Origin: Sandaracinus amylolyticus
GTDB taxonomy: Bacteria > Myxococcota_A > Polyangia > Polyangiales > Sandaracinaceae
Assembly (NCBI RefSeq): GCF_021631985.1
Contig: NZ_CP070225.1
Span: forward strand, 496,001 to 560,000
Reading direction: 5' to 3'
Length of the DNA stretch: 64,000 nt
Positions 16,527 through 63,637 of this stretch are shown here, in pieces (the first letter of the stretch is position 1; every line of letters starts with the position of its first letter). Made by a program: the position numbers and the translations under genes. The notes under the pieces are model-generated. The model was not told the DNA's origin. It ran no database searches and worked only from the letters and a program-made list of their open reading frames with translations.

Positions 16527-19100
16527 TCACCGCACGCACGCGACCTGGAGCTCGTCGCCGCCGTTCTCGAGCGGCCCGTATCCGCTGACCGCGCCGCGCG
16601 ATCTGCAGAAGCGATGGATCGCGGCGTTGCAGTCGCGCCCGATGCGCGAGGTCGCGGTGCACGCCGCATGGATCGCCGAGAGCGCGGTGTACGTCGTGCC
16701 GATCGTCTCGGCGCCCGGCGTGCACGCGACCGTGACGCCGTCGCCCGAGACGCGCACTGGGCCGTAGCCGGTCGTGAGCCCCGCGGCCGCGCAGTAGCGG
16801 TGGATCGCGGCGTTGCACTGCATGCCGAGGCGCTCGGTCGCGCCATCACACCCCGCGTGGTGCGACGCGAGCTCGGCGAACGTCGTGGTCCGCAGCGTCG
16901 CGCTCACGCACGCGACGTGCGCGACGTCGCCGCTGTTCTCGACCGGTCCGAAGCCGCTCGATCCGCAGGTGCCCGCGGCCGATCCGCAGAGGCCGTGGAT
17001 CGCCTCGTTGCACTCGAGCCCGCTGCGCGTCGCGCCGTCGCAGACCGGATGGTGCTCGCGCAGCGCGGTGTACGTGCTCGCGACCGACTGCGGCGCGAAG
17101 CCCTCGTCGACGCGTCCATCGCAGTCGTCGTCGGCGTGGCTGCAGGTCTCGGTGGTCGGGGTGCGCGCGCTGCACGCGGTGAACGAGCCCGCGACGCAGG
17201 TCTCGACGCCCGCGCCGCACTCGGTGGTGCACGCGCGCGCGACGCCCTCGTCGGTGGTGCCGTCGCAGTCGTCGTCGACCGCGTTGCAGGTCTCGGTGGT
17301 GCCGCTCGGCGCACTGCACGCGGTCCATGCGCCGCGCTCGCACGCCTGCGTTCCGGCGCCGCACGCGTTGGTGCAGTCGCGCGTCTCTCCGTCCTCGCAG
17401 TCGCCCGGCGCGTAGCTCGCGTAGCGGAACCCGGGCGAGAGCACGACGAGCTCGATCAGCGCGCTCATGCGATGCCCGGCGCTCGCGAACTCGCGCGCGA
17501 GGCGCTCGATCTCGACCTGCTCGCCGCGCGTCTCGAGGTGGCCCGACGCCCAGCGATAGAAGCGACGCGTGAAGCACGCGCCGACACGATCGCTCCCCGC
17601 GAGGTGCGCCCCGAGCTCGTCCGCGCCGTCGACCGCGACACCGTCGACGTCGCCGCTCGCGTCGATCGGGAGCCCGTTGTCGAGGTCGCGGAAGCGACCG
17701 ACGGGATCGAAGTGCTCGAGCGTGAAGCCGAGCGGATCCATCAGCGTGTGGCAGCCCGCGCAGACGGGATCGGTGCGGTGGCGATCGAGGCGCTGGCGCA
17801 GGGTCTCGGGCTCGCCGCTTCCTTCGGGCAGCTCGGTCGAGATGCCGGGCGGCGGCGGCGGGATGTCCTGACAGAGCAGGTTCGCGCGCACGAATTTGCC
17901 GCGGAACGTGGGCGAAGTGAGCGTCGCGTGGGCCCACATCGAGAGCACGCCGGCGCGTCCCATCACGCCGCCGCGGTGCTGCTCGGCGGGAAGCGTGGTG
18001 CGCATGCGCGCTCCGTCGGGCGGCGCGGGCAGGCCGTAGTGCGCGGCGAGCTCGGCGTCGACGAACGTGACGTCGGTCGAGAACACCTCGCGCACGTCGG
18101 CGTCGCGCTCGTAGACATCGGCGAAGATCGCGTCGATCTCCGCGCGCATCGACGCGCGCAGGGACGGCGTGAACATCGGGAAGAGCTCGGGATCCTTGCT
18201 CACCGTGTCGAGCCGCTCGAGCTGCATGAACTCGCCCCAGAAGCGCGTCATCGCAGCGCGCGCCCGAGGGTCGCGGGTCATGCGCGTCACCTGCGCGCGC
18301 AGGCCGTCTTCGGTCACGAGCTCGCCCGCCGCGGCCGCGCGCAGCAGCTCTTCGTCGGGCGTGCTCCCCCACAGGAAGTACGAGAGGCGGCTCGCCATCT
18401 CGAAGCCGGTGTAGCGGAGCCGCGTGCGCTCGCTCGGATCGGGCTCACCGCGCTCGACGCGGAAGAGGAAGTGCGGCGACTGCAGGATCGCGGAGAGCGC
18501 GAACCCGGCGCCGCGCCACGCGTCGCGCAGCATCGCGCCGGTGTCGGTCGCGATCGAGACCAGTGCCTCGACCTCGCCCGGCTCGAGCGCGCGGCGCCAC
18601 GCGAGACGACCGAAGCGCACGATGAACGCGCGCAGGCAGGGCTCGCCCTCGCTCGCGACGTCGCACCCGAAGAACGCGGTGCGGCGTGCGGGATCGGCGA
18701 GCATCTGCGTCGCGAGCGCGTTCGCCGAGGACTCGTACTGCTCGACCTCGAGCGGCGGGATCGTGAGCTCCGACGCGCCGACGGTGCTGAAGCCGTGCAG
18801 CAGCGTGTCGTTCGGGAGATCGCCCGGGACGGTGGTGCCCGCCGGGAAGAGATCGCGGATCGTCTGCTCGTACTCGGCGCGCGTCAGGCGATGCAGCATC
18901 GCGGGCGCGGGCGTGAGCACGGTTGGATTCGGCGTGTCGGGTCGCGAGGTGCCGCGCGGTCCGCTCGGGCCGTCGAAGAGGTTGCCCTCGCACCCCGCGA
19001 GCGCGCAGCCCAGCGCGAGCGTCCAGGATGCGATCGTACGGGCGCGCCGTGGTGGCGCGACGTTGCGGCGTCCCGCGTGCTGGCTCGAACGAACGGCCAT
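16527..19100 (-). CDS. DUF1587/1592/1588/1585-type haem lipoprotein with MopE motifs and three C-terminal repeats
   Basis: An 857-residue lipoprotein (lipobox LAGC near residue 32). It carries the planctomycete-type PSD/PSCyt domain series: LHRLTRAEYEQTIRDLF, then GFEMASRLSYFLWGSTPDEEL (DUF1592), GRAGVLSMWAHATLTSPTFRGKF and a c-type haem site C447AGCH451 inside the DUF1588 part, then HFDPVGRFRD and the DUF1585-like end. Beyond about residue 590 lie two MopE-like metal-binding motifs (DDDCDGTTDEG, DDDCDGRVDEG). The last 190 residues hold three repeats of about 63 residues with shared HxxC, CNxAIHxxC, GYGP and VAC positions. It is probably an outer-membrane redox protein working with the DUF1552 partner. 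ATG 19100 gives a proper signal peptide. Confidence 0.82.
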   Translation of the reverse strand: MAVRSSQHAGRRNVAPPRRARTIASWTLALGCALAGCEGNLFDGPSGPRGTSRPDTPNPTVLTPAPAMLHRLTRAEYEQTIRDLFPAGTTVPGDLPNDTLLHGFSTVGASELTIPPLEVEQYESSANALATQMLADPARRTAFFGCDVASEGEPCLRAFIVRFGRLAWRRALEPGEVEALVSIATDTGAMLRDAWRGAGFALSAILQSPHFLFRVERGEPDPSERTRLRYTGFEMASRLSYFLWGSTPDEELLRAAAAGELVTEDGLRAQVTRMTRDPRARAAMTRFWGEFMQLERLDTVSKDPELFPMFTPSLRASMRAEIDAIFADVYERDADVREVFSTDVTFVDAELAAHYGLPAPPDGARMRTTLPAEQHRGGVMGRAGVLSMWAHATLTSPTFRGKFVRANLLCQDIPPPPPGISTELPEGSGEPETLRQRLDRHRTDPVCAGCHTLMDPLGFTLEHFDPVGRFRDLDNGLPIDASGDVDGVAVDGADELGAHLAGSDRVGACFTRRFYRWASGHLETRGEQVEIERLAREFASAGHRMSALIELVVLSPGFRYASYAPGDCEDGETRDCTNACGAGTQACERGAWTACSAPSGTTETCNAVDDDCDGTTDEGVARACTTECGAGVETCVAGSFTACSARTPTTETCSHADDDCDGRVDEGFAPQSVASTYTALREHHPVCDGATRSGLECNEAIHGLCGSAAGTCGSSGFGPVENSGDVAHVACVSATLRTTTFAELASHHAGCDGATERLGMQCNAAIHRYCAAAGLTTGYGPVRVSGDGVTVACTPGAETIGTTYTALSAIHAACTATSRIGRDCNAAIHRFCRSRGAVSGYGPLENGGDELQVACVR

Positions 19101-24715: not shown

Positions 24716-24740
24716 GACGTCGTACCGCGCTCAGTTCTCG

Positions 24741-24840
24741 GAGGGGTCTTGGAAGACCCCTCCCCCCGACCGGCGAAGCCGGATCGGGGCCCCCCACCCC
24801 GAACGCTGCGCGCGGGGCCCCACCCCCACTTGCTCGCGTT
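24741..24840 (+). repeat. dispersed 98-bp hairpin repeat family 1, copy A
   Basis: It begins with GAGGGGTCTTGGAAGACCCC (a perfect 9-bp stem with a 2-nt turn) and a C-run, then CCGACCGGC-GAA-GCCGGATCGG. It continues with an unpaired CCCCGAACGCTGCGCGCGGGGCCCC segment and ends TTGCTCG. Near-identical copies lie at 31808-31905 (reverse) and 37631-37729. This copy sits between the tamB-like stop and the tamA-like start. Confidence 0.8.
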
Positions 24841-24869
24841 CGCGCAGGTTCCGATCCATCGACAGCCTC

Positions 24870-27800
24870 TCACTCGAATTCCAGACGCCATCGGAGGTCG
24901 CACCCGACGTTTCCGAACGACGTCGCGCTGCCCTGCGTGAAGTTGTCGTAGCTGCACTGGACGCCGGTGGTGTCGTCGAGCTGCACGTCGACGAGCGCGC
25001 GGAAGTCGCGCGCATCGCCCGCGCCCACGCCCGTCGTCGCGCTGAGGCGCACCCGATCGGCGATGCGCTTGCCCACCGAGATCTGGGGCTCGGTGCGCCC
25101 GCTCCGGAGCGAGTACCCGCTCGAGATCCGGAAGTCGTCGATCAGCGGCACCGCGCGCCGCACCTCACGATCCACGCCGGTGATCTGCGTGAGCGCCTCG
25201 AGCGCCGCGGTGCTCGTCACGTCGCCGGTCTGCAGCTGCTCGAACTCGCCGCGCGTCATGCCGACCGCGAGCAGCATGAGGATGTCCTCCTGCGGCAGAT
25301 CGGGATCGCTGCTGGTCTGGATCTCGAACGAGCCCATCGAGCCCCGCGCGTCGAGCAGGATGCGCCACCGCGCCGCCGCGAGATCGCCGCTGCGCCGCAC
25401 CTCGGTCACCGCGCCGAGCGTGAACGTGGGATCGATGCGGGTGTCGTCGTCGAACGAGAGCGAGCCGTTCCGCACGTCGAAGATCGCGTTGCGGAAGAAG
25501 ATGCGCCCGCGCGTGAACTGCATGCTCCCGAGCACGCCGTAGCGCTGATCGGTGCCGACGATCCGGAACGCGCGCTGGGTGTCGTCGATCACCAGCTCGG
25601 CCTCGACGAGGTTGTTGCGCACCACGAACGGCTGCTCGTCGACGATGCGCAGATCGAGCGCGACGCGATCGGCGTCGGGATCGTAGCGCTGCACCTCCGC
25701 GCGCTGCGTGCGCGAGAGCTCGCCGAGCGTGGTGCCGAGATCGATGTTGCGCGTGAACGCGAGGCGCCCGACGCGCAGCTCGCCGCGCGCCGTCGGGAGG
25801 CGCTCGCCGCGCGTCCAGCCGACCTCGACGTCCGCCGCGAGCGCGAGATCCATCCCGTCTGCCGGCGCGAGCTCGAGCCCCTCGCCGTGCACCCGCACGT
25901 TCCAGCGAGAGAGCCGGCCGTCCGCGAGCTGCGCCTCGCCGTTGCCGCGGATCGTCCCGCCCGCGAGGTGCGCGCGCAGCTCGTCGATCTGGATGCTGCG
26001 CGCGCTGAACGTCACGTGCGCGTCGAGCCCCTCGACCGGCGTGGGCAGCGCCGCCGCGCGCAGCGAGCCGCCCTCGAGCCGCGCGTCACCGTAGATCTCG
26101 GGATCCGAGATCGGCCCGCTGATCGCGAGGCGCGCGACGATGTCTCCGTCGGCCTCGGTGACCGCGGGCGTGATGCGCGCGAGCAGCCCGAGATCGACGC
26201 GCGCGTCCATCTGCAGCGCGAGCCCTCCGTCGTCGCCGGGGACCGGCAGCGCGTACTGACCGCGCACCCGGATGCGCGAGTCGGGCCCGACGAGCCGCGC
26301 GCGATCGACGCTCGCCACGCCGTTCTTCAGCGAGAAGAGCAGGGGCCCGCGGTTCGTGAACGCGACGTCGCCGCGGGCGAGCTCGAGATCGCTCACCTCG
26401 AGGCGCCCGGCGAGCGTCGAGAGATCGCGCAGCCCGCCGTCCTCGAGCACCAGCTCCGCGCTCACCTTCCCGCGCGACGCCGGCGCGCCGGGCGAGGGCA
26501 CCGGCATGAACGCGGCGAGCTCGAGCCCGTCGAGCGCGATGCGACCGCGCAGCGGGTACTGCTGGGTCCGGCCCACCGCGAGATCGACCGTCATGCGTCC
26601 GTCGAGCGCGGTCCCGCAGATCACGAACGCGCTCGCGCGCGAGAGCCGCGGCTGGAGCCCGTCGACCGTGCGGAGCGGCGGATCGTTCGGCCAGTTCGCG
26701 CGCGCCAGGCCCATGCGCGCGAGCGGGCAGTCCTCGTGCTCCGGCGGCTGTCCTTCCCACGCGAGCGCGTCCTGGATCCACGCGTCGTCCTGATGGGTCT
26801 GGCGCACGTACGCGCGCGCATCGCCGATCGCGCGCCCCGCGTACACGACGTTGGTCAGCCCCACGTCGAGATCGATGCGCATCGCGTCGGGCGTGCCGCC
26901 CACCTGCGCGGTCGCGGTCGCGATCCCGTCGAGCCCCGGGAACCGATCGCCGATGCCCTCGAGCTCGCGCAGCGCGAGCGCATCGGCGGCCGCGGTCATG
27001 CGCAGGGCGCCGCCGACGGCCATCGTGCCCTGCAGCGAGACAGTGCCCTCGCCCTTGTGGAGGCTCGCGTGATCGATCAGCAGCTCGGCGCCGCTGATCC
27101 CGCGTGACCAGTCGAGCCACCGGAAGCGTCCCTCGAGCGCGCCCCTCTCGAACTGATAGTCGTCGACCGACATGTCCGAGAGCGCGAGGCGCATCCCGAC
27201 GTCGAGCGTCCCGCTCGGCGAGTCGCCGGGATAGCCGTTCGTGTAGTCGATCTCCGCTTCGCCGTGCGCGACGCCCTGGTACGGCGTGAAGCGCTCGTCC
27301 GCTTCGAACCCGAACACGTGATAGAAGTCCGCGAGCTCCATCCGCTCGAGCGCGAGCCGCCCCGACATGCGGAACGCGTTGCGGTGGAAGTCGAGATAGA
27401 CGTCGTTCGCCGCGTAGCGGCTGTCGTCCTTCACCGCGACGATGTGCGGGAACGTGACGCCCATGCCGTCGGAGTCGAGCACCGCGTCGCTGTCGACGTC
27501 GCCGAGGCGGAACGAGTCGAACACGAAGTCCTGGATGCGCACGTGCCCGGTCACGCGCGGCGCCTGGTAGAAGCCGTCGATCTCGCAGGTCGCGGTGCCG
27601 ATGCCGGCGAGCTGGAAGCGCGTGAGCGGCGAGACGTCGCGCAGGTCCGCGGGATCGGCCCGCGCGCTCACGCGGAGCTCGTTGCGGAAGCCGAGCAGCA
27701 CGTCGGCGTAGAGCCGGCTGTGCGGGAGATCGGCGACGAGATCGGTGAACCGGATCGCGTCGTTGCGGATCGACCACTCACCGCGGAAGTGCCCGCGCGG

Positions 27801-29099
27801 GATGGCGATCACCGTGCGCAGCGGGCGCTCGTGGTACGCGTTCGCGCTGACCGTGAAGTCGTGGGTGCGCAGATCGACGGGCCCCGAGAGATCGAGGTCG
27901 CGCAGCGATCCGCGCAGCACCATCGAGCCCTCGAAGATCCACTCGACGATCGAATTCTGCGACACCGAGAGCTGATCCATCAGGTGCGCGAACGAGAACG
28001 CGTGGAGCTCCGCGGTCACGTCGAGCGGCAGCTCCTCGGTGAGGCCCAGCGTGCCGCCGAGCGTGAGCGTCCCGCCGCCTCCGACGACCTGCACCTCGCC
28101 GCTCGTGATGCGCACTTCGCGAGGCGTCGCCTCGAACTCGATCTGCGCGACGTCGCCGATGCCGAACTCGGTGATGCGCCCGTGATCGAGCCGCACGCTG
28201 CCGGTCGCGCGCTGTCCGTGCGCGCCGTCGTGCGAGAGACGCGCGCGGATCGCGGCGTGGCCCCACATCGCGGGGAGCGTGATCGGCAGGCCGAGCGTCG
28301 CGAGGTGCTCGAGCTCGTAGTCGACCGCGATCTGGCCCACGTAGCCGCGCGCGCCCTCGGTGCGCGGATCGGGCGGCGGGAGCGGCACGTAGCCCTCGCC
28401 GATCTCCGCGTGCAGCGGGCCGAGCGCGAGCGCGAGCTGCTGCACACGCAGCGCGTCGGACGCGATCTCGACGTGACCCTCGAGCCGCTCGAGCGCGTGC
28501 TCCGTGCCCTCGCGCGTGATCGATCCCGTGCCCTCGACGACGGTCACGTCGATCACGCCGCCGCGCTCACCGCGCACCGTGATCTCGTCGACGTGCAGCG
28601 CGCCGCTCGCGATGGGATCCGCGTCGACCGTGAGCGACGCCTCGCGGATCACCAGCTCGCCGAAGGGCAGGGTCATCTCGCCGCCGCCACCCCCGCCCTC
28701 GATGCGCGGCAGGTTGCGGAGCTGTCCGTCGCGGATGACGAGGTGCACGCTCGCGCCGTCGAGCTCGATCGCGTCGAGGTCGACCTGCCCGCGCAGCAGC
28801 GCACCCACCGAGGGCCGCACCGCGATGCGCGACGCGTCGGCCACGCGCCCGTACACCGGGTCCGCGAGCGAGACGTCGCGCGCGACGATCGCGAAGGGCG
28901 AGAGCTGGAGCTGCACCGGCCCCAGCGACGCGCTCATCCCGAGCTCCTGGCGGATCGTGTCGATCAGCAGGGCGCGGAGCCGCGTGTGCGCTTCGGACGA
29001 GCGAATCGTGAGCGCGGCCGAGACCGGGATCCCGATCGCGAAGACCGCGAGGACCACCGCCCACTTGCGCCACCGGCGAAACGCGATCCCACGGCCCAC
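24870..29099 (-). CDS. TamB-like translocation and assembly protein (DUF490)
   Basis: A 1409-residue protein. One N-terminal membrane anchor (about 10-30, WAVVLAVFAIGIPVSAAL) is followed by an AsmA-like start (LGPVQLQLSPFAIVARDVSLADP). A very long region of repeated beta-strand segments predicts a periplasm-spanning groove. The DUF490 domain at the C-terminus contains FTRGRIFFRNAIFDVRNGSL, DPTFTLGAVTEV and PQEDILMLLAVGMTRGEFEQ. Such proteins bridge inner and outer membranes with an Omp85 partner, here encoded directly downstream. GTG 29099 is chosen because it opens just before the anchor; the frame continues 63 codons upstream without family features. Confidence 0.85.
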   Translation of the reverse strand: MGRGIAFRRWRKWAVVLAVFAIGIPVSAALTIRSSEAHTRLRALLIDTIRQELGMSASLGPVQLQLSPFAIVARDVSLADPVYGRVADASRIAVRPSVGALLRGQVDLDAIELDGASVHLVIRDGQLRNLPRIEGGGGGGEMTLPFGELVIREASLTVDADPIASGALHVDEITVRGERGGVIDVTVVEGTGSITREGTEHALERLEGHVEIASDALRVQQLALALGPLHAEIGEGYVPLPPPDPRTEGARGYVGQIAVDYELEHLATLGLPITLPAMWGHAAIRARLSHDGAHGQRATGSVRLDHGRITEFGIGDVAQIEFEATPREVRITSGEVQVVGGGGTLTLGGTLGLTEELPLDVTAELHAFSFAHLMDQLSVSQNSIVEWIFEGSMVLRGSLRDLDLSGPVDLRTHDFTVSANAYHERPLRTVIAIPRGHFRGEWSIRNDAIRFTDLVADLPHSRLYADVLLGFRNELRVSARADPADLRDVSPLTRFQLAGIGTATCEIDGFYQAPRVTGHVRIQDFVFDSFRLGDVDSDAVLDSDGMGVTFPHIVAVKDDSRYAANDVYLDFHRNAFRMSGRLALERMELADFYHVFGFEADERFTPYQGVAHGEAEIDYTNGYPGDSPSGTLDVGMRLALSDMSVDDYQFERGALEGRFRWLDWSRGISGAELLIDHASLHKGEGTVSLQGTMAVGGALRMTAAADALALRELEGIGDRFPGLDGIATATAQVGGTPDAMRIDLDVGLTNVVYAGRAIGDARAYVRQTHQDDAWIQDALAWEGQPPEHEDCPLARMGLARANWPNDPPLRTVDGLQPRLSRASAFVICGTALDGRMTVDLAVGRTQQYPLRGRIALDGLELAAFMPVPSPGAPASRGKVSAELVLEDGGLRDLSTLAGRLEVSDLELARGDVAFTNRGPLLFSLKNGVASVDRARLVGPDSRIRVRGQYALPVPGDDGGLALQMDARVDLGLLARITPAVTEADGDIVARLAISGPISDPEIYGDARLEGGSLRAAALPTPVEGLDAHVTFSARSIQIDELRAHLAGGTIRGNGEAQLADGRLSRWNVRVHGEGLELAPADGMDLALAADVEVGWTRGERLPTARGELRVGRLAFTRNIDLGTTLGELSRTQRAEVQRYDPDADRVALDLRIVDEQPFVVRNNLVEAELVIDDTQRAFRIVGTDQRYGVLGSMQFTRGRIFFRNAIFDVRNGSLSFDDDTRIDPTFTLGAVTEVRRSGDLAAARWRILLDARGSMGSFEIQTSSDPDLPQEDILMLLAVGMTRGEFEQLQTGDVTSTAALEALTQITGVDREVRRAVPLIDDFRISSGYSLRSGRTEPQISVGKRIADRVRLSATTGVGAGDARDFRALVDVQLDDTTGVQCSYDNFTQGSATSFGNVGCDLRWRLEFE

Positions 29100-30358: not shown

Positions 30359-30404
30359 GGGCAGCCGGACTGTGCGGTTTCCGGCGAGCAGGGGCAAGCC
30401 CGCT

Positions 30405-31082
30405 CTAATCGCTGACGAGCGGGCCGAAGAGGAACCACCCGCAGACGCCGACGACCAGGTCGTAGGCCCCGAGGATCCGCATCCACGCCAGCGTCTCCTC
30501 GAGCGGCTCGCCCGCGAGGATCCCGCGCGTCGCCACCACGCCCGCGAGCAGCGCCGGCGTCACCAGCGGGAACAGCACCACGCTCAGCATCAGATCGCGC
30601 GAGCGCGTCCGCACCGTCATCGCGCCGAAGAGCGTGCCCGTCAGCACGAACCCGAGCGATCCGAGCAGCAGCGTCGGGATCATCAGCGGCAGCGCGGGCA
30701 CCAGATCGAGATGGAAGAGCACCGCGACCAGCGGCACCAGCATCAGCTCGATCGCGACGATGAACGCGAGGGTCCCCACCGCCTTGCCCGCGAAGATCGC
30801 GGGCCGCGGGATCGGCGCGAGGAGCAGCCCGCGCATCGCGTCGTTCTCGCGCTCGCGCCCCCAGGTGCGACCGATCGCGAGCACACCCGCGAACGCGATC
30901 GCGATCCACAGCACGCCCGGCGCGATGCGCCGCGCGATCACGTCGTCCACGTAGAACGAGAGCGACGTGAGCACGACGGTGAGCACCGCGAAGAGCCCGG
31001 TGCTCACCGTGATCTCGCGGGTGCGCAGCTCGATCCGCAGGTCCTTCCAGGCGAGCAGCGCCGCCGCGCGCAAGACGCTCAC
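30405..31082 (-). CDS. ccmB: haem exporter permease CcmB
   Basis: A 225-residue membrane protein with six hydrophobic segments and the CcmB pattern: LAWKDLRIELRTRE at the N-terminus, GRTWGRERENDAMRGLLLAPIPRPAIF in the first cytosolic loop, and LFPLVTPALL late. With CcmA it forms the ABC module of cytochrome c maturation, which releases haem from CcmE. The GTG start at 31082 overlaps the ccmA stop (GTGA). CcmC, CcmE and CcmF are not in the window. Confidence 0.88.
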   Translation of the reverse strand: MSVLRAAALLAWKDLRIELRTREITVSTGLFAVLTVVLTSLSFYVDDVIARRIAPGVLWIAIAFAGVLAIGRTWGRERENDAMRGLLLAPIPRPAIFAGKAVGTLAFIVAIELMLVPLVAVLFHLDLVPALPLMIPTLLLGSLGFVLTGTLFGAMTVRTRSRDLMLSVVLFPLVTPALLAGVVATRGILAGEPLEETLAWMRILGAYDLVVGVCGWFLFGPLVSD

Positions 31083-31807: not shown

Positions 31808-31905
31808 ACGAGCAAGCCCGGCTGGGGCCCCGCGCGCAGCGTTCGGGGTAGGGGGACCCGATCCGGCTCCGCCGGTCGGGGGGAGGGGTCTTCCAAGACC
31901 CTTCC
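31808..31905 (-). repeat. dispersed 98-bp hairpin repeat family 1, copy B
   Basis: Reverse-complement copy of the 24741-24840 element, with a few substitutions (the first stem has one mismatch, GAAGGGTCTTGGAAGACCCC). It lies about 6 bp after the penicillin-binding transpeptidase stop, in the direction of that gene's transcription, and 42 bp before the ccmA start. That position fits a transcription end. Confidence 0.8.
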
Positions 31906-31911
31906 CGCGAG

Positions 31912-32904
31912 CTACAGCAATGCCGTCGCGATCCTTGCGAACGCGGGCGCAGCGACGGTCCCGCCGGTGTAGCCCTCGTCGACCGTGTCGACGCCCACGA
32001 CGATCACGAAGCGCGGCGCCTCGAGCGGCGCGACCCCGGCGAACGCCGCGTACGACGCACCATCGTCGAGCCTCGCCGTCCCGGTCTTGCCCGCCACGCG
32101 ATGCCCGGCGACGAGCGCGCCGTGTCCGGTGCCGTCCTCGCGCACGATCGACGCCTCGAGCAGCGCGACCATCGTCGCCGACGTCGCCTCGCTCAGCACG
32201 CGCTCGCCGGGGGACGGCGCTTCGCCCTCGCGCCACGGCGCGTGGTACGTGCCTCCGTTCACGATCGCCGCGAACGCTGCCGCGACCTCGAGCGGCGTCG
32301 GCGCGAGGCCCGCTCCGATCGCGACGGGGATCGTCTCTTCCACGTCGGCGCGAGCCGCCTCGGGCACCCGATGATCGAGGTGCAGCCGCGCCATCCCCTC
32401 GAGCCAGGCCTCGCGTCCCACGCGCTCGAGCACGCGCGCAGTGCCGATGTTCGACGAGAACGCGACCACGTCCTCGAGCGACATCACGCCGTGCGGCGAT
32501 GCGTCGCGCATGCGCAGCGCCCCGAACGTCGCGGCGCCCTCGCCGCCGTCGAACGCGTCCTCGGTGGTGATCGCCCCGCGATCGAGCGCGATCGCGATGG
32601 TGAACGTCTTGCCCACCGAGCCGTGCGGCACGGCATCGCGCTCGGGGATCGCGGGATCGACCGACTCGCCGCGCCGTCCGTTCATCGCGATCACCCGTCC
32701 GGTCGCGGGATCGAGGACGACGATCGACATCGCGCGGGTCGTGGGCTCCGCGAACGCGCGCGCGAGCTCGAGGTCGATCACCTCGCGCGCTCGCGCGTCG
32801 AGCGACGTGCCGGGCGCTGGCGTCGTCGCGGTCGTGTCGGTGGGGGCCGGAGCTGCGTGCGCGCACGAGGAGAGCGCGACGAGGAGCATTGCGTATCGAG
32901 TCAT
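31912..32904 (-). CDS. small penicillin-binding transpeptidase lipoprotein
   Basis: A 330-residue protein with a short signal peptide ending LSSC (Cys14), a Thr/Pro/Ala linker, and one transpeptidase domain. The three active-site motifs are present in order: S96-V-G-K99, S150-S-N152 and KTG in HRVAGKTGTARL. It would cross-link peptidoglycan in the periplasm. FtsI/PBP2-type enzymes are normally 550-700 residues with an N-terminal pedestal, which is missing here; the protein is catalytic domain only. ATG 32904 gives the signal peptide. It is flanked by ccmA and hemW on the same strand without overlap. Confidence 0.82.
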   Translation of the reverse strand: MTRYAMLLVALSSCAHAAPAPTDTTATTPAPGTSLDARAREVIDLELARAFAEPTTRAMSIVVLDPATGRVIAMNGRRGESVDPAIPERDAVPHGSVGKTFTIAIALDRGAITTEDAFDGGEGAATFGALRMRDASPHGVMSLEDVVAFSSNIGTARVLERVGREAWLEGMARLHLDHRVPEAARADVEETIPVAIGAGLAPTPLEVAAAFAAIVNGGTYHAPWREGEAPSPGERVLSEATSATMVALLEASIVREDGTGHGALVAGHRVAGKTGTARLDDGASYAAFAGVAPLEAPRFVIVVGVDTVDEGYTGGTVAAPAFARIATALL

Positions 32905-35957: not shown

Positions 35958-36596
35958 ATGGCGCTCCAAGACCTCGTACGCTGGCTGATCCCTCGCGAGC
36001 AGCACTTCTTCGAGTTCCTCGAGCGGCAGGCCGCCGCCGCGCACAAGGGCGCACGCGCGCTCGGCGAATTCGCGAACGGCAAACGCATCGAGGACGTGCA
36101 GTCCGCCGTGCAGATCTGCGAGCACGAGGGCGACAAGGTCGTCCACGAGCTCGAGGAAGCGCTGGGCCGCACCTTCGTCACCCCGATCGATCGCGAGGAC
36201 CTCCAGCACCTCTCGTCGGAGCTCGACGACGTGCTCGATCTCACGAACAGCGCCGCGCGCGCGTGCCTGCTCTTCGGCGTCTCGAAGCCCACCGAGCCGA
36301 TGAAGAAGCTCATCGCGCTGCTCATCCAGTGCACCGAGATCCTCGAGGGCGCGCTGCCGCGGCTCGGCAAGCACGACTACGGCGCGCTGATGACCGCGAG
36401 CCGCGCGATCCGCCAGCTCGAGAAGGACGCCGATCGCATCTTCCGCCAGGAGCTCTCGCGCCTCTTCCACGACGAAGGCGTCGACGCGAAGGAGATCCTC
36501 CGCGAGAAGGAAGTGCTCGAGGATCTCGAGCACGCCGTCGATCGCTGCGAGCGCGTCGCGCACACGCTCGCGAACCTGGCCGTGAAGCATGGTTAG
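35958..36596 (+). CDS. DUF47 PhoU-like protein of the phosphate transporter
   Basis: A 212-residue all-helical protein of the DUF47/PhoU-like family: FFEFLERQA at the start, EHEGDKVVHELEEALGRTFVTPIDREDL in the middle (metal-binding ExxxD-type helix), and KEILREKEVLEDLEHAVDRCERVAHTLANL at the end. It partners Pit-type transporters and is thought to modulate them. The stop overlaps the pit start by 8 bp, so the two are translationally coupled. Confidence 0.88.
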   Translation: MALQDLVRWLIPREQHFFEFLERQAAAAHKGARALGEFANGKRIEDVQSAVQICEHEGDKVVHELEEALGRTFVTPIDREDLQHLSSELDDVLDLTNSAARACLLFGVSKPTEPMKKLIALLIQCTEILEGALPRLGKHDYGALMTASRAIRQLEKDADRIFRQELSRLFHDEGVDAKEILREKEVLEDLEHAVDRCERVAHTLANLAVKHG

Positions 36597-37623
36597 TCTG
36601 CTGATCGCGGTCGTCGTCGCGGCCGTCGTCTTCGACTACATCAACGGCTTCCACGACGCAGCGAACGCGATCGCGACGGTCGTCTCCACCGGCGTGCTGC
36701 CGCTGCGCACCGCCGTGATCATCGCCGCGATCTTCAACTTCGTCGGCGCGATCACCGGCACCGCGGTCGCCACCACGATCGCGACCGGGTTCGCCGATGC
36801 CCAGATCGTCGATCAGACGGTCGTGCTCTGCGCGCTGCTCGGCGCGTCGGCGTGGAACCTGATCACGTGGTGGTACGGCATCCCCTCGTCGAGCTCGCAC
36901 GCGCTGATCGGCGGGCTCGCGGGCGCGGTGGTCGCGCACGCGGGCGTCGCCGCGTTCCACTGGGAGACGCTCGGCAAGAAGGTGCTCCTGCCGCTCGTCG
37001 TCTCGCCCACGCTGGGGTTCGTCGCGGCGTTCTTCCTGATGATCGCGCTGCTCTGGATCGTGCGCCGCGCGAGACCGGGCACGGTGCACCGCGCCTCGCG
37101 CCGGATGCAGCTCCTGAGCGCGTGCATGATGGCGTTCTCCCACGGCTCGAACGACGCGCAGAAGGCGATGGGCATCATCACGCTCGCGCTGGTCGCGTTC
37201 GCCGCGAACGGCGGCACCGGCGTGCCCGAGTGGATGATGCCGGTGGGCGACACTGCGGCGGACATGGAAGTGCCCCGCTGGGTGATCTACACGTGCGCGA
37301 GCGCGATCGCGCTCGGCACCGCCGCGGGTGGGCGCCGCATCATCAAGACGATGGGCACCAAGATCATCCGCATCTCGCCGCTCCAGGGCTTCGCGGCGGA
37401 GACCGCGGGCGCGGCGACGATCCTCGTCGCGAGCCACGCCGGCGTGCCGGTGTCGACCACCCACGTGATCAACGCGTGCATCATGGGCGTCGGCGCGAGC
37501 AACCGGATCAGCGCGGTGCGCTGGGGCGTCGCGACGAACATCGTGATCGCGTGGGTGCTCACGCTGCCGCTGAGCGCGGCGATCGCGTTCGTGCTCGAGC
37601 TCGTGATCTCGCCGCTGCTGTAG
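36589..37623 (+). CDS. pit: low-affinity inorganic phosphate transporter (PiT family)
   Basis: A 344-residue membrane protein with about ten hydrophobic segments. The duplicated PiT signature is visible: FDYINGFHDAANAIATVVSTGVL at the N-terminus and FSHGSNDAQKAMGII in the second half, plus GIPSSSSHALIGGLAG and GVPVSTTHVINACIMGVG. It would import phosphate as a metal-phosphate complex with protons or sodium. It is coupled to the DUF47 gene upstream. A family 1 repeat starts 8 bp after its stop, where a terminator would be expected. Confidence 0.92.
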   Translation: MVSLLIAVVVAAVVFDYINGFHDAANAIATVVSTGVLPLRTAVIIAAIFNFVGAITGTAVATTIATGFADAQIVDQTVVLCALLGASAWNLITWWYGIPSSSSHALIGGLAGAVVAHAGVAAFHWETLGKKVLLPLVVSPTLGFVAAFFLMIALLWIVRRARPGTVHRASRRMQLLSACMMAFSHGSNDAQKAMGIITLALVAFAANGGTGVPEWMMPVGDTAADMEVPRWVIYTCASAIALGTAAGGRRIIKTMGTKIIRISPLQGFAAETAGAATILVASHAGVPVSTTHVINACIMGVGASNRISAVRWGVATNIVIAWVLTLPLSAAIAFVLELVISPLL

Positions 37624-37630
37624 TTGGCGG

Positions 37631-37729
37631 GAGGGGTCTTGGAAGACCCCTCCCCCCGACCGGCAGAGCCGGATCGGGGCCCCCCCACCCCAAACGCTGC
37701 GCGCGGGGCCCCAGCCCCGCTTGCTCGTG
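37631..37729 (+). repeat. dispersed 98-bp hairpin repeat family 1, copy C
   Basis: Closest relative of copy A, with a perfect first hairpin (AGGGGTCTTGGAAGACCCCT) starting 8 bp past the pit stop. Its 3' half also forms the first unit of a 65-bp tandem array. Confidence 0.82.
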
Positions 37730-37895
37730 CTCGGCGCGCGTGGGGATGTCCGAGCGACGCTCATCGCGCGGGGCCCCAGCCCCGCTTGCTCGTGCTCGGC
37801 GCGCCTGGGGCCTTCTGAGCGACGCTCATCGCGCGGGGCCCCAGCCCCGCTTGCTCGTGCTCGGCGCGCCTGGGGCCTTCTGAGCGACGCTCATC
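37701..37895 (+). repeat. three tandem 65-bp units
   Basis: Units at 37701-37765, 37766-37830 and 37831-37895. Each begins GCGCGGGGCCCCAGCCCCGC and ends GCGACGCTCATC. Units 2 and 3 are identical; unit 1 differs in the middle (GTGGGGATGTCC for CTGGGGCCTTCT). The start of each unit is the 3' end of the family 1 element, so the array grew out of copy C. It fills the gap before a gene on the other strand. Confidence 0.82.
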
Positions 37896-37906
37896 GCGGC
37901 GGCTGA

Positions 37907-41218: not shown

Positions 41219-41734
41219 ATGAACGAGGCACCTACGATCTTCCATCGCGACGACGTGCTCTGCGTCGCGGCGTGGCGCGACGTGATGCTCGAGCTGTGGT
41301 CGGGCGAGGGGACGATCGAGCACTTCCGCGTGGTGCGCGCGAGCTCGCGGCGCATCGTCGATCGCGCGCAGGGCAGTCGGGTGTGCTTGGTGTCGAGCGT
41401 GCAGGTGCCGGCGCTCCGCGCGGTGCCGCAGGACGTGCGGAACGAGATGGTCGCGCGCGATCGCGAGATGGCGCCGCACCTGATCGCGGCGGCGCTCGTG
41501 GTGTCGAGCAAGGGGTTCGTCGCGTCGATCGTGCGCAGCATGCTCGCGGGGCTGCAGATGACGTCCCAGACGCGCGCGCCGTCGCGGGTGTTCGAGGACG
41601 AGCTCAGCGCGCTCGCGTGGCTGGCGCCGCACGTGTCGTCGATCGGCACGCGCGCGTGCACGCCGGGCGATCTGCGCAGCGCCATGGCGGAGGCGCGTGG
41701 TGCTCCGCCCACGCGCGCGCTCCACGTGTTGTGA
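41219..41734 (+). CDS. hypothetical protein, STAS/SpoIIAA-like appearance
   Basis: A 171-residue soluble protein. Its pattern (CVAAWRDVMLELWSGEGTIEHFRVV, then CLVSSVQVPALR, a long amphipathic helix and SALAWLAPHVSSIG at the end) resembles single-domain STAS- or SpoIIAA-like proteins common in myxobacteria. There is no clear catalytic motif, so the assignment is weak. It ends just before a truncated family 1 repeat and a hairpin. Confidence 0.5.
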   Translation: MNEAPTIFHRDDVLCVAAWRDVMLELWSGEGTIEHFRVVRASSRRIVDRAQGSRVCLVSSVQVPALRAVPQDVRNEMVARDREMAPHLIAAALVVSSKGFVASIVRSMLAGLQMTSQTRAPSRVFEDELSALAWLAPHVSSIGTRACTPGDLRSAMAEARGAPPTRALHVL

Positions 41735-41746
41735 TCGTCCGTCTGG

Positions 41747-41774
41747 GCAAGCGGGTTGGGGACCCGCGCGCAGC
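41747..41774 (-). repeat. truncated family 1 repeat
   Basis: GCAAGCGGGTTGGGGACCCG plus CGCGCAGC is the reverse complement of the last 28 bp of the family 1 element, with two changes. The hairpin half of the element is missing. It lies between convergent genes. Confidence 0.55.
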
Positions 41775-41786
41775 TGGGGGTCGACA

Positions 41787-41805
41787 GGGGGGCGCGCAGC
41801 CCCCC
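41787..41805. terminator. GC hairpin between convergent genes
   Basis: GGGGGGC and GCCCCCC form a 7-bp stem with a 5-nt loop, midway between the stops at 41734 (+) and 41813 (-). It is a likely bidirectional terminator. Confidence 0.5.
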
Positions 41806-41812
41806 GGGGAAC

Positions 41813-43009
41813 TCAGTCCCAGCGGTTCGTCATCGCGTCGAGCGACACGCGGTGCCACACGAACACGCCGCCGTCGCGGTAGTGATCGTGCTGCTCGCCC
41901 GCGCACATCACGTAGCCCTGCAGCGGGTCGCAGTGCGGTGCGCCGAAGAGGTGCCCCGTCTCGTGCACGAGGATGATCTGCGCGCGCTCGCGCGAGAGAT
42001 CGAAGTCGAAGAGCCCGCTCACCTGCACGTCGAGCCAGCCGCACGCCGCGCCGCCGCCCATCTCCTGGGTGAGGCCGACCAGCATGTCGAAGCCGTGGTG
42101 ATCGGGATCGGTGCGTCCCGGGCGGCTCTCGTCGACGTCCCAGTCGCGCGTGAGGCCGAGCTGCGCGCGCGCGTACGCGCCGACCTGCTCGCAGAACCCG
42201 CCGCCCGCTTCGTTCGCGGTGAGCCCGGGCAGCACGTGGAAGAGCTGCCGCACGTTCATCATCTCGTCGAACCCGCCGGGGAACGACTGGTAGGTGCCTC
42301 CGCCCGCGGGATCGAACACCTCGGTCGCGCGGGTGAACGCCTCGTGCAGGAAGACCTCGGGCGCGCGCGTCTCGCCGAGGCGCTGGAAGTACATCGGGTC
42401 GTACACCACCGCGACGAACATCGCGTCGCTCGTCGCGATCGAGAGCGCGCTGCCGGTGAATTCGGTGTCCGCCGCGCCGTTCACGTCGACGCGCGGGATC
42501 GTGTAGTCGCCGCGTCCGAGCGCGAAGCGATCACCGCGCGCCGCGTCGTGGAGGAAGGGTCCGACCTCGAGCGTCGCATCGACGCGGGCACGTGCGGCGA
42601 GATCGATCTCGACGGTGCCGAGCGGGACGTCGGTGAAGTCCGCGAAGCGCGCGCTGGTGACGTGCGGGATCAGCGTGACGCGCCCCGCGACGTCGCCGTG
42701 GTTCTCGACCGTGAGGACCACGCGGAGCGTGTCGCCCTTCGCCGGCGCGCCACCTGCGGCGTTGGTGATCGCGATCGCGACGACGTCGGGGCGCAGCTCG
42801 TCCACGAGCTCACCGCCGGCATCGGGCTCGATGGCCGCGTCGTCGGTGGATGGCGTCGCGGCGTCCCGTGGCGCGGCGTCGGTCGTGGGCACCGCGGCAT
42901 CGCGGGTCTCGGGATCGGTGAGCCGTCCCTCGCATCCGATGACGAGCGCGGTGATCAGGGACGCGACGAGCGTGACGCGAGCGCGGCCGTGCGGCGTGGT
43001 GGCATCCAT
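41813..43009 (-). CDS. metzincin-type metalloprotease lipoprotein
   Basis: A 398-residue lipoprotein: lipobox VIGC (Cys26), a linker rich in Asp/Ala/Pro/Thr (about 35-65), a CARDB-like beta domain (about 70-190, LRVVLTVENHGDVAGRVTLIP), then the protease. The zinc site is HETGHLFGAPH (H349, H353, H359), and GYVMCAGEQ supplies the Met-turn, both hallmarks of metzincins. Catalysis should cleave peptide bonds at the cell surface. Target unknown. The long spacer domain could position the enzyme away from the membrane. Confidence 0.75.
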   Translation of the reverse strand: MDATTPHGRARVTLVASLITALVIGCEGRLTDPETRDAAVPTTDAAPRDAATPSTDDAAIEPDAGGELVDELRPDVVAIAITNAAGGAPAKGDTLRVVLTVENHGDVAGRVTLIPHVTSARFADFTDVPLGTVEIDLAARARVDATLEVGPFLHDAARGDRFALGRGDYTIPRVDVNGAADTEFTGSALSIATSDAMFVAVVYDPMYFQRLGETRAPEVFLHEAFTRATEVFDPAGGGTYQSFPGGFDEMMNVRQLFHVLPGLTANEAGGGFCEQVGAYARAQLGLTRDWDVDESRPGRTDPDHHGFDMLVGLTQEMGGGAACGWLDVQVSGLFDFDLSRERAQIILVHETGHLFGAPHCDPLQGYVMCAGEQHDHYRDGGVFVWHRVSLDAMTNRWD

Positions 43010-46958: not shown

Positions 46959-47066
46959 GAGCTTCCCGAGACGGTTGAGCTTCCGGAGGCGGTTGAGCTT
47001 CCGGAGGCGGTTGAGCTTCCGGAGGCGGTTGAGCTTCCGGAGGCGGTTGAGCTTCCGGAGGCGGTT
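46959..47066. repeat. 18-bp tandem repeat, six copies
   Basis: GAGCTTCCGGAGGCGGTT repeats at 46959, 46977, 46995, 47013, 47031 and 47049. The first copy has two changes and the other five are identical, which indicates recent expansion. It contains a partial CTTCCGGAGG palindrome. It is upstream of the lipoprotein gene on the minus strand. Confidence 0.9.
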
Positions 47067-47072
47067 AAGCGC

Positions 47073-47105: not shown

Positions 47106-47265
47106 GTTCACTGCCTCTTATCGAGGTTCACTGCCTCTTATCGAGGTTCACTGCCTCTTATCGAGGTTCACTGCCTCTTATCGAGGTTCACTGCCTCTTA
47201 TCGAGGTTCACTGCCTCTTATCGAGGTTCACTGCCTCTTATCGAGGTTCACTGCCTCTTATCGAT
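47106..47265. repeat. 20-bp tandem repeat, eight copies
   Basis: GTTCACTGCCTCTTATCGAG occurs eight times head-to-tail (47106-47265). Only the final base of the last copy differs. There are no spacers, so this is not CRISPR. It begins 4 bp past the tRNA-Gly 3' end on the minus strand and would form part of its 3' trailer. Confidence 0.92.
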
Positions 47266-59764: not shown

Positions 59765-62700
59765 TCAGGGTACGGTGGTTGTGCTGCCGCCCGTTCCACT
59801 GCCGCCCGTTCCACTGCCGCCCGTTCCACTGCCGCCCGTTCCACTGCCGCCCGTTCCACTGCCGCCCGTTCCACTGCCGCCCGTTCCAGTTCCCGTACTG
59901 CCGGTCCCGACTACTCCCCCGGAGCCCTGCTGCGCAGGGTTTCCCGACGACGGGGGAGCCACATAGGTGTCCCACCACAGTCCATAGTGGTTGTCATACG
60001 CGGCTCGGTATTGGGCGCCAGTTGTACTCATCGTCTCAGAACCCATCGTGTCGCCTGTGTCCTGTATGAACTCGGAGCGCGTCGAGAATCCGCTGTCGTA
60101 ATCTTCGTAGAGCGCGCGGTAGGTTTGCGCATCCTTGCCAGGGACGGCGATATCGGGGCCACCATTGACGTAGATTTCGTAGGCGGCGCGCGACGCCATG
60201 AGCTGGGCCTCGGCTTCGTCGTCCAGGTGAGTTCGCGTGTTCCTCTCCACGAACTGGGCCCGAGTCAGTCCGTTCGGTGGCACGGGCGCCTGGGGAGTAT
60301 AGCGGGCATGCCCAGCTTCGTGTGCGACGACGGCTGCTTCGTACCCTGCGTTCCCTGAGCTCGGATCGATCCTGATCCAGTTGTTGCTGCGGTCGCAGTA
60401 CGACCCGGTCTGATGCTGCGACCCGGGAGGTGGGCTGTAGCTGATCGTCCATCCATCAGCCGCCAATGTCTGGAGTTCGGATTGCAGAGTCGGTGAGTGT
60501 GCGAGAATCGCGCGGACTTCCGGACGAAGCCCGGCGAGCATCGGATGGGACTGCGGCGTGCTAAGAAGCCCGAACCGTCGAAGCAAGCTGGCCGCGAAGT
60601 TCCGCAGACGCAGCCACGCGCGACGCGCGCCCCGCAACCCGTGCGGCATGGGCGCAGGGGCGACTGCGTGCTCGGTGGTAGGACCGTCTTCGTGCTCGGA
60701 GCGTGCGCGCGCGTCACCGTCACACGCGAGTCCGCGGACGTCGACCTGGCGAAGGGGGTTCTCCGAATATGCGTAGACGTTGATCCCGCCCGCGACGCCC
60801 CAGGGATCGCTCTCGAGATATCTGCCGAGCTCGGGCGAGTAGTAGCGGAATCGGTTGTAGTGGAGCCGAGTCTCTGCGTCCCAGAAGTGCCCGGGAAAGC
60901 GGAACGGTTGATGGAACTCGTGTCCACCCTCGACGACGAGTCCATAGGGCTCTCTTCGCGCCCACCAGACCGCTTCGCCTTCCTGGTCGCGGACCAGCTC
61001 GGGCGTACCTTGGTGATCGGTGAACAGGTAATAGCGCCGACCTGACTCGGGGGTTGAGTCGATATCCGCGCACTCGACGAAGAGTACGGGGACCATCGCG
61101 AAGTCATCGACGTAGACGTAGATGCGAACTCGCCCGTCCGGGAGCCGCTCTGCTGCGAGGCGATCGGTATCCCACCAATACGTGGTCTCGTGCGTCTCGT
61201 GTCGCTTCTTCGTACGGCGGCCGACCGCGTCGTACTCGGCGTTCCACGTGCTGCCGTCGGGGAGATCGATGCGGACGAGTTGGTCGCGCGCGTCGTGGTG
61301 GAATCGAGTCTCTCCCCCGTCGGGGCCACGGCGGACCGCGAGGTGGTGGCGATGGTCGTACTCGAAAGCGTCGCCGTTCGCTGCGTAGAGGCGATTCCCC
61401 TCGATCAGCGTGACCCCGCGAAGGCCGGGCTTTTCGAGGAGGTTGCCGGCGGGGTCGTAGACATGGCGACTCGGCTCGGGGGCGTTCTCGTGGCGGACGC
61501 TCGCGAGCTGATGAGCGACGTCGTGCTCGTAGTAGGTCGTGCCGCGGGCCGAGTCGCGGGCCGCGATCAGGTCACCTTCGCCGCTGTAGGCGTACTCCCG
61601 CGACCATGCGTCGCCCGAGGCCGTCGACATTGCCTTTGCGAGGCAGCGACCGTCCGGTGCGTATTGGACTAGCTCGCTCGCACCGTCGGCGAGCTCGCGA
61701 CGAAACACGCCGGGAGCGAGGCGATGTACGGTATGCGCAGCGCCCGTGGGGTCGACGATGCGAACCGAGCCATCCGGCCCTCGCTCGTATTTGATGTCGA
61801 AGCGACCGAGCGTGCGGGTGTTGACCAGGCGATCGCCGACGTAGCGGTGCTCGACGCCGAGCCCGTCTCGGAGATCTGCGACGCGATGGCCCCACGCGTC
61901 GTAGTCGAACGCGACCTTTCCCGCATCGTTCTCGACCACGCGGTAGCGGCCGCGCGCGTCGTACTGGAAACGCTGGACATCGCCGCTCGCGAGCTTTCGC
62001 TCCGCGAGCAAGCCAGTCGGATCATACGAGAGCTCGAGTAGGACGCGGCCGAACGCGTCTCGTTTCGCGATCAGCCGGTCGGCGAGGTCGTACGCATAGT
62101 GGTCCCGCGTCGTGCCGGCGCGACGAATCTCGACGAGGCGGTCCTTTTCGTCATAGCGATACTCGCTCAGGGTGCCGCCGGGATCGAGCAGCGACGCGAG
62201 CTTCTCGGCGTTCGTGTACGTGAAGCGCGTCGCGCGGCCGAGCGGATCACGCTCGAGGACGCGATGGTTCCACGACGCGTGCTCGCTCGAATACGTGCGT
62301 CCGTCGAAGTCGGTGTAACGGCGGATGTTGCCGTTCGGGTCATGGCCCCAAGTGCGACTGGCACCATCGCGCTGTTGCGCGAGCAGCAGGCCCTGCTCGT
62401 CCCGTCGGTCTCGGACCGCGACGAGCGCGGGCTCGTTCGCGGGTGTTCGCAGGAGCGAGCGCTCTGGCGCGAGCCAGGTCGTCTCCGGAAACGCGGTGGC
62501 CGCGTCGAAGTCGAGCGTTTCGAGATCTCCGAGCTCCCACTGCAGCGCGCAGCTGGGGACGCGATGGGCATCGGGCGGTAGCGCATCGTCGGGCTCGGGC
62601 AGCGGGACTCGACGTCCGCTCGGCTCGATGCGCGCGATCATCGCGCCGCGCGGGTCGTACTCGAACTGCGTCGTCGCGCCGGTCGGATCGACCTCGCGCA

Positions 62701-63637
62701 CGATCCGACCCGCGCTGTCGCGCTCCCAGAGGCGTACGCCGCCGAACGGATCGACGACCTGCAGGAGGGCGCCGACTGCGTCGTACTGATAGAGCCACTC
62801 GCCTCCGCTCGACTCGCGAACGACGGTCACGCACTCCTGCGTGCGGTGCTCGAGCCGCACCTCGAGCACACCGTCATCGCCTGCCGAGCGCACGCATCGC
62901 CCGTGGTGGTCGTACTCGAACGAGAACGCGTAGCCGCGACGATCGACGGTGCGCGTGACACGTCGCGATGCGTCGTACGCGAGCCGGAACGTCTGCTGGT
63001 AGGCATCGCGACCCTCGATGAGACAGCCGCGCTCGTCGTAGCGATAGCGAATCAGCGCCTTGCCGCCTCGGACAGAGTCGAGGAGGACGACCTGCACCAA
63101 GTGCCCGCGCTCCCAATCGACGCGCAGACGTCGGCCCGACGGGAGGACGACGGTGGTGAGCTGACCCAGACCGTCGTGCTCGAGCCGAAGGGACGCGCCA
63201 TCCTGGTCGATGCGAACGAGCCGCGCGAACGACGCGCCCTGCGCGCGCTCGAAATGACGATCGGGCGCTGCGTGGCCGCGCACGACGAAGCGTCGAGCAT
63301 CGACGCGCTCGAGCTCGAGCCCCCCGGCCGCACCGACGAGGCCCTCGGCGAAGGCGTGCGGGAACGCGACCGGCGGGTCGTGGGGACGCCGGTAGAGCAC
63401 CCCGTCGAGGTCCCACTCTAGCGTGTGGTCGAGCTCGTGGGCGAAGCCCCACCCGACGCCGCGATCGGTGTCGGAGCGGGTGCTGTCGTAAGAGCGCCGC
63501 CACACGAACGGGATCGGCTCGTCCGCGACGCGGAAGTCGGCGACACGGTCGAGCACGGCGCCGGTGACCACGTCGATCGGATCGCCGACCAGCCCGGGCC
63601 TCGAGCCCGCCGTGCATTCGCGACGTGAGTCGCTCAC
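59765..63637 (-). CDS. Rhs-family polymorphic toxin with metalloprotease tip
   Basis: A 1290-residue Rhs protein from GTG 63637. Its N-terminus is the typical GDPIDVVTGAVLDRVADF start that follows PAAR. Dozens of YD/Rhs repeats (for example YDERGCLIEGRD, YDPTGLLAERKL) build the cocoon shell. The core ends with YYSPELGRYLESDPWGVAGGINVYAY and NPLRQVDVRGL (about 933-975). The tip (about 1030-1230) has a zinc site H1106-E-A-G-H1110 and a downstream DDEAEAQ (E1141/E1143), a gluzincin-like arrangement. The tail is (GTGGS)7 and ends TTTVP. It is expected to be loaded by the PAAR-like protein, most likely by type VI secretion, and to cleave target proteins in rivals. Confidence 0.88.
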   Translation of the reverse strand: MSDSRRECTAGSRPGLVGDPIDVVTGAVLDRVADFRVADEPIPFVWRRSYDSTRSDTDRGVGWGFAHELDHTLEWDLDGVLYRRPHDPPVAFPHAFAEGLVGAAGGLELERVDARRFVVRGHAAPDRHFERAQGASFARLVRIDQDGASLRLEHDGLGQLTTVVLPSGRRLRVDWERGHLVQVVLLDSVRGGKALIRYRYDERGCLIEGRDAYQQTFRLAYDASRRVTRTVDRRGYAFSFEYDHHGRCVRSAGDDGVLEVRLEHRTQECVTVVRESSGGEWLYQYDAVGALLQVVDPFGGVRLWERDSAGRIVREVDPTGATTQFEYDPRGAMIARIEPSGRRVPLPEPDDALPPDAHRVPSCALQWELGDLETLDFDAATAFPETTWLAPERSLLRTPANEPALVAVRDRRDEQGLLLAQQRDGASRTWGHDPNGNIRRYTDFDGRTYSSEHASWNHRVLERDPLGRATRFTYTNAEKLASLLDPGGTLSEYRYDEKDRLVEIRRAGTTRDHYAYDLADRLIAKRDAFGRVLLELSYDPTGLLAERKLASGDVQRFQYDARGRYRVVENDAGKVAFDYDAWGHRVADLRDGLGVEHRYVGDRLVNTRTLGRFDIKYERGPDGSVRIVDPTGAAHTVHRLAPGVFRRELADGASELVQYAPDGRCLAKAMSTASGDAWSREYAYSGEGDLIAARDSARGTTYYEHDVAHQLASVRHENAPEPSRHVYDPAGNLLEKPGLRGVTLIEGNRLYAANGDAFEYDHRHHLAVRRGPDGGETRFHHDARDQLVRIDLPDGSTWNAEYDAVGRRTKKRHETHETTYWWDTDRLAAERLPDGRVRIYVYVDDFAMVPVLFVECADIDSTPESGRRYYLFTDHQGTPELVRDQEGEAVWWARREPYGLVVEGGHEFHQPFRFPGHFWDAETRLHYNRFRYYSPELGRYLESDPWGVAGGINVYAYSENPLRQVDVRGLACDGDARARSEHEDGPTTEHAVAPAPMPHGLRGARRAWLRLRNFAASLLRRFGLLSTPQSHPMLAGLRPEVRAILAHSPTLQSELQTLAADGWTISYSPPPGSQHQTGSYCDRSNNWIRIDPSSGNAGYEAAVVAHEAGHARYTPQAPVPPNGLTRAQFVERNTRTHLDDEAEAQLMASRAAYEIYVNGGPDIAVPGKDAQTYRALYEDYDSGFSTRSEFIQDTGDTMGSETMSTTGAQYRAAYDNHYGLWWDTYVAPPSSGNPAQQGSGGVVGTGSTGTGTGGSGTGGSGTGGSGTGGSGTGGSGTGGSGTGGSTTTVP
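59786..59890. repeat. 15-bp tandem repeat coding (GTGGS)7 tail
   Basis: Seven consecutive GCCGCCCGTTCCACT units (the last ends CAGT), in the final codons of the Rhs gene. They encode Gly-Thr-Gly-Gly-Ser repeats on the minus strand. Near-perfect identity suggests recent slippage or selection for a flexible end. Confidence 0.92.

Follow-up and report, generated by a model that had tools for sequence, protein, structure and literature searches.

A probably mobile family of multi-hairpin repeats located at stop codons in Sandaracinus and related myxobacteria

We describe a dispersed family of near-identical repeats in Sandaracinus amylolyticus that is locked to the stop codons of genes and whose insertions are largely species-specific, with empty sites in a congeneric genome, structural lesions in shared copies and target duplications that have no fixed length. 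The repeat most probably represents a short, non-coding, non-autonomous mobile family (∼100–150 bp) resembling REPs and MITEs, found in Sandaracinaceae and related myxobacteria.

The analysis started from the window, a stretch of 64,000 nucleotides. A preliminary description had reported three near-identical copies, a fragment at 41747-41774 and, in two copies, a hairpin just behind a stop codon. The three copies (24741-24840, plus strand; 31905-31808, minus strand; 37631-37729, plus strand) are real and 88–92% identical. The hairpin follows the stop in the copies at 31808 and 37631, and the copy at 24741 is reversed, with its right end at a stop. The fragment turned out to belong to a second subfamily (B), whose first hairpin is different (TGA-GTTCCCCGGGGGGCTGCGCGCCCCCCTGTCGACCCCCAGCTGCGCGCGGGTCCCCAACCCGCTTGC): it is the minus-strand tail of a complete copy. 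The features of the family in the window are:

24731-24869, plus strand: copy 1, complete including the right arm and inverted with respect to its neighbours.
24740-24763, ∼24764-24789 and ∼24810-24834, plus strand: hairpins 1, 2 and 4 of copy 1.
31808-31911, minus strand: copy 2, adjoining the minus-strand gene 31912-32889, whose stop TAG (31914-31912) it directly follows.
37624-37729, plus strand: copy 3, starting right after the stop TAG (37621-37623) of gene 36589-37623.
37700-37898, plus strand: tandem triplication of the copy 3 tail hairpin (GCGCGGGGCCCCAGCCCCGCTTGC), with a 65-bp unit.
41735-41812, minus strand: complete subfamily B copy, with hairpin 1 GGGGGGCTGCGCGCCCCCC and tail GCGCGGGTCCCCAACCCGCTTGC.
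30385-30404, minus strand: probable remnant GCGGGCTTGC of a lost copy, right after the stop of gene 30405-31082.

The minus-strand gene 24870-29099 ends in the stop codon TCA (24870-24872), which the right end of copy 1 (..ATCGACAGCCTC) adjoins. The subfamily B copy occupies the whole gap between the stop TGA (41815-41813) of gene 41813-43009 and a convergent stop at 41732-41734, starting right after the former.

Repeats of other kinds also occur in the window. A tandem array of eight identical 20-bp units (GTTCACTGCCTCTTATCGAG; 47106-47264) separates a minus-strand tRNA gene (47341-47270, apparently Gly-GCC), which it adjoins at the 3′ end, from a GC-rich hairpin; a second array, of six 18-bp units (46959-47070), follows. 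The large minus-strand gene 59765-63571 contains, at its 3′ end, seven tandem copies of a 15-bp unit (CTGCCGCCCGTTCCA; 59784-59888) that probably encode a repeated protein segment, and two 144-bp tandem units (17093-17383) within the minus-strand gene 16527-19100 probably correspond to a repeated protein domain.

Read in sense orientation, the stop codon is followed by (G)YTTNCGG, hairpin 1 (GGAGGGGTCTTGGAAGACCCCTCC; GGAGGGGTC-TTGGA-GACCCCTCC), hairpin 2 (CCCGACCGGCRRAGCCGGATCGGG), a C-run/ACCCC link, RAACRCTGC, hairpin 4 (GCGCGGGGCCCCAGCCCCGC) and TTGC, and some copies continue into a right arm ending ..CGATNCATCGACAGCCTC. The element is ∼100–150 bp long and has three or more hairpins; its left boundary is nearly constant and its right boundary varies among copies. 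What had been called a fixed unstructured half in fact folds a third hairpin (GCGCGGGGCCCCAGCCCCGC, replaced by GCGCGGGTCCCCAACCCGC or GCGCGGGTCTTCGACCCGC in other subfamilies). The subfamily B sequence is TGA-N4-8-CCCGGGGGGCTGCGCGCCCCCCTGTCGACCCCCGAGCTGCGCGCGGGTCCCCACCCGCTTGC or, in a compensated form, GGGGGAGGCTGCGCGCCTCCCCTCTCGACCCCTCG; this subfamily likewise lies directly behind stop codons.

Standard pairs accounted for 98.7% of 1719 predicted pair cells in 69 copies. Compensated stem changes were seen in the ATGGAT subfamily (GGAAGGGGTCA..TGACCCCTTCC), in copies with GGCGGGG..CCCCGCC and in subfamily B (GGGGGAGGC..GCCTCCCC vs GGGGGGC..GCCCCCC); inside a single species such changes are scarce, and part of them are inherited along a subfamily. 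The minimum-energy fold proposed a closing helix that pairs the left end (AGYUUNCGGG) with CCCRAACRCU, which was dropped when the pairing columns showed no covariation. Rfam 15 covariance models detected only a tRNA over the window at the gathering score, and at six loci of different subfamilies nothing at E ≤ 1 except a tRNA.

All copy counts come from pattern and similarity searches of genomes. In the source genome (G000; 10,963,797 bases in two contigs, 10.75 and 0.21 Mb) the hairpin core GGTCTTGGAAGACCC occurred at 46 sites with at most one mismatch, 44 of them exact, and the reversed-pattern control gave 0 matches. The similarity search yielded ∼41 near-full-length matches among the 40 best-scored candidates, and inclusion of the ATGGAT variant raised the number of copies with the first hairpin to ∼57, extending the four places of the preliminary description to the whole genome. 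A shortened copy with hairpin 1 and tail only (L066, ∼99877) is present on the 0.21-Mb second contig (C2). The congener G008 (10.33 Mb, one contig) carries ∼30 copies with the hairpin, mostly at other sites, plus tail-only relatives. At one locus (L107 in G008, L071 in G000) the element is tandemly duplicated or triplicated, and the unit boundaries differ between the two species (∼105 vs 76 bp).

No full copy was found in the third genome of this genus that was searched, an incomplete one of 6 Mb, or in genera g2, g4, g5 and g6. Matches to the shared tail GCGCGGG-N4..10-CCCGCTTGC number 74 in G000, 56 in G008, 16 in G002 and 31 in G003, with 0–1 matches of the reversed control in these genomes, and a search of 84,980 species genomes for the exact tail 24-mer hit only records labelled Sandaracinaceae, Polyangiaceae, Myxococcales or Deltaproteobacteria. 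Genus g3 (Sandaracinaceae) and MAGs labelled Polyangiaceae contain sister elements built from other stem sequences in the same layout (hairpin 1, hairpin 2, C-run, hairpin 3 in some, tail hairpin), at a stop spacing of −6/−8. Among 37 sampled sister hairpins, 27 had a stop-like trinucleotide, not ascertained as a genuine stop, 6–12 nt upstream, vs ∼16% by chance.

The position relative to genes is strikingly uniform. Among 87 copies in G000 and G008, 75 follow a gene in sense orientation, 69 have a stop 0–16 nt ahead of the GGGGTC of hairpin 1 in the same orientation and 43 share one offset, −9/−10; the stop distances rest on genes called with a simple home-made codon-usage caller. TGA, TAG and TAA are all used. 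A preference for the sequence TGA alone is insufficient to produce this lock, because genuine stops make up only 31 of the 246 intergenic stop-like trinucleotides in the window (∼13%; binomial p ∼1e-45) and only 13 of 55 when the baseline is confined to TGAG (p ∼1e-27). The reversed copies at 520743 (24741 in the window), 4163072, 9317007 and 1995142 place the element's right end at the stop (TCA) of a convergent gene. The lock has exceptions, namely one insertion within a coding sequence and several copies with no preceding stop.

We then located the flanks of G000 copies in G008, the single informative congener. About 41 sites were informative, of which ∼31 were empty in G008, three (8903101, 694540 and 671987) held an element or hairpin array of a different kind, and seven held the same element. 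Read base by base, these sites bear out the earlier suggestion of a mobile element, and the comparison indicates that the element has moved since the two species parted. At single empty sites the difference may reflect loss from G008 instead of gain in G000; losses do occur, as judged by the remnant at 30404 in the window, where the G008 ortholog of gene 30405-31082 still has an element at that stop. Copy 1 has a degenerate counterpart in G008. The site of copy 2 is empty there (TAG, 9 nt, then flank), as is that of the subfamily B copy. Copy 3 is absent as well, and in G008 its stop is followed by another, native hairpin that is missing from G000.

Empty sites usually retain the same stop codon. 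We rejected the possibility that genes are truncated by a stop carried in with the element (TGAG at its end), as the stop is usually in the same place in G008 and the next base is often not G. An overall test for target duplication (longest common substring) was not significant (6.03 vs 5.87 by chance, p 0.13), and therefore only sites with an empty ortholog were used to define duplications. At single sites these measured 0, 3, 8, 13 and ∼50 bp, without a fixed length; 10191449, 9567678, 1995142, 5438182, 6461494 and 9480904 are the clean cases:

6461494 (ATCTGA/CGCG), 7470393, 9100113, 9480904, 9655961, 2665181, 9762679, 1639264 and window copies 2, 3 and B: empty in G008, same stop.
6461494 and 9480904: clean empty sites, no gap.
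1995142: CTC duplicated, 3 bp.
10191449: target CGGTAACT duplicated, 8 bp.
9567678: 13 bp of target (GATCGGATCGCGC) duplicated within a coding sequence, one mismatch.
5438182: ∼50 bp duplicated.

Irregular duplications and a variable right end are presumably unlike the products of a DDE transposase. Neither the search for Y1 transposases nor the reverse transcriptase (RT) loci examined revealed a mobilising enzyme, and no long copy with an ORF between the element ends was seen; the ends share only GAG..CTC. An RNA-mediated or template-switching route of movement is possible. Insertion by a resident RT, through target-primed reverse transcription or at the transcript level, appears rather unlikely to us. 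It would suit the near-constant left and variable right boundary, although the right arm may be diverged instead of truncated, and it would suit duplications ranging from 0 to ∼50 bp. RT genes are found in every genome carrying the element in number, but they also occur in relatives without the element, they look like retron or group II types (judged by size, motif and copy number only), and no element copy was adjacent to the RT loci examined. G008 has eight near-identically scoring RT genes, at loci such as L178 and L185, that probably form a group II intron family and are absent from G000.

The preliminary description had also assigned the repeat a terminator role. In this alternative, the repeats are U-less intrinsic terminators or mRNA 3′-end stabilisers under selection, the lock reflects function and copies arise by recombination. 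Position and orientation do suit a 3′-end signal, the hairpins are very stable (copy 3: MFE ∼−62 kcal/mol, z −4) and their stems show compensatory changes. The loss from G000 of the native hairpin seen in G008 at the copy 3 locus points the same way, and the subfamily B copies, which are partly common to both species and look intact, would also fit a selected role. Yet in the window copies no T-run or U-tract follows any hairpin, the tail being CTTGC, and no terminator-like match was found at the copies. At 7470393, 8196542, 9655961, 3776579 and 9762679 a native hairpin has been kept downstream of the element, and 5–6 of the 7 subfamily A copies common to G000 and G008 carry a stem-breaking deletion or substitutions in one species. 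A conserved terminator role is unsupported on these three grounds. Furthermore, the ∼31 orthologous genes manage without an element, and a hairpin so near the stop would compete with terminating ribosomes. We consider this alternative distinctly unlikely.

It is highly improbable that the family consists of classical REP elements moved by a RAYT (Y1) transposase. The earlier REP-type label holds in so far as these are short extragenic palindromes, many near stop codons, like part of the E. coli REPs (PMC12306157). REPs are defined as palindromes of 20–40 bp ending in GTAG or CGTC (PMC3733652), however, and the element lacks the GTAG tag and has three or more hairpins in 100–150 bp. Searches for Y1_Tnp (PF01797) found no gene in G000 or G008; the domain is present in some other genera of the family, and the Y1 loci examined in other genera contained no copy of the element. 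Chance similarity or an assembly artefact, to which nothing lends support beyond the frequency of short matches at high GC, has a negligible probability given an exact 15-mer at 44 sites against 0 control matches and independent occurrence in several genomes from different projects.

For the mobile family that we favour, we propose that a copy would go in within a few bases of an existing gene's stop, usually left end first and occasionally with its right end against a convergent stop. A trans-acting enzyme would copy the element to new places, steered to stop codons or to a DNA or RNA feature there, and selection would presumably remove insertions elsewhere. Once inserted, the element would be transcribed as a strong 3′-UTR hairpin array, which could stall ribosomes near the stop or shield the mRNA 3′ end, in the manner of stop-proximal REPs in E. 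coli; according to a study cited in PMC12306157, ribosomes stall at REPs that lie within 15 nt of a stop. Persistence of the copies does not look selected, as old copies decay.

Tentatively, and with less than even likelihood, the family could constitute a new mobile class in which integration is steered by gene ends, that is by the stop codon, translation termination or a transcript-level step, and in which the multi-hairpin architecture is conserved across related myxobacterial genera while nearly every stem sequence has turned over. Mobile elements that avoid damage by inserting at harmless sites typically recognise tRNA genes, att sites or terminators. Base-precise landing at the stops of genes that are unrelated means either that targets are recognised in a new way or that insertions are strongly filtered, both testable with a pair of sequenced species and dozens of filled and empty sites. 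The repeats also pose an annotation risk, as they could pass for conserved terminators or regulatory RNAs.

The element is similar in kind to REPs and MITEs and lacks defining features of both. In the open-access literature, searches on repeats in Sandaracinus or Sorangium and on insertion directed at stop codons turned up no description of it. The GGGAATC G-rich repeats of Xanthomonas and Nostoc (PMC4692102) differ from multi-hairpin elements with empty sites in being tandem arrays of a quadruplex-forming heptamer. Intrinsic terminators without a U-tract share the strong GC hairpin close behind the stop, but the element is mobile and repeated, continues into more hairpins and sits upstream of native hairpins. 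Like MITEs and other small repeats (RUP, ERIC/RU, Correia, MITEAba12) it is short, non-coding, dispersed, polymorphic between genomes and presumably moved in trans; it differs in having no fixed target duplication and in its lock to stop codons and orientation bias, and may differ in its terminal inverted repeats, which are not clear beyond GAG/CTC, and in having no evident parent IS. With the REP/BIME families of E. coli and Pseudomonas it shares the many-copy extragenic palindromes at gene 3′ ends, including a stop-proximal subset (≤15 nt; PMC12306157), whereas its size of 100–150 bp, its three or more hairpins, its left end GYTTNCGG, the absence of a GTAG/CGTC tag from the alignment and the lack of a RAYT set it apart. 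The proportions also differ: ∼11% of E. coli REPs lie within 15 nt of a stop in the RepRanger survey (PMC12306157), compared with ∼80% of the copies described here within 16 nt and about half at a single offset.
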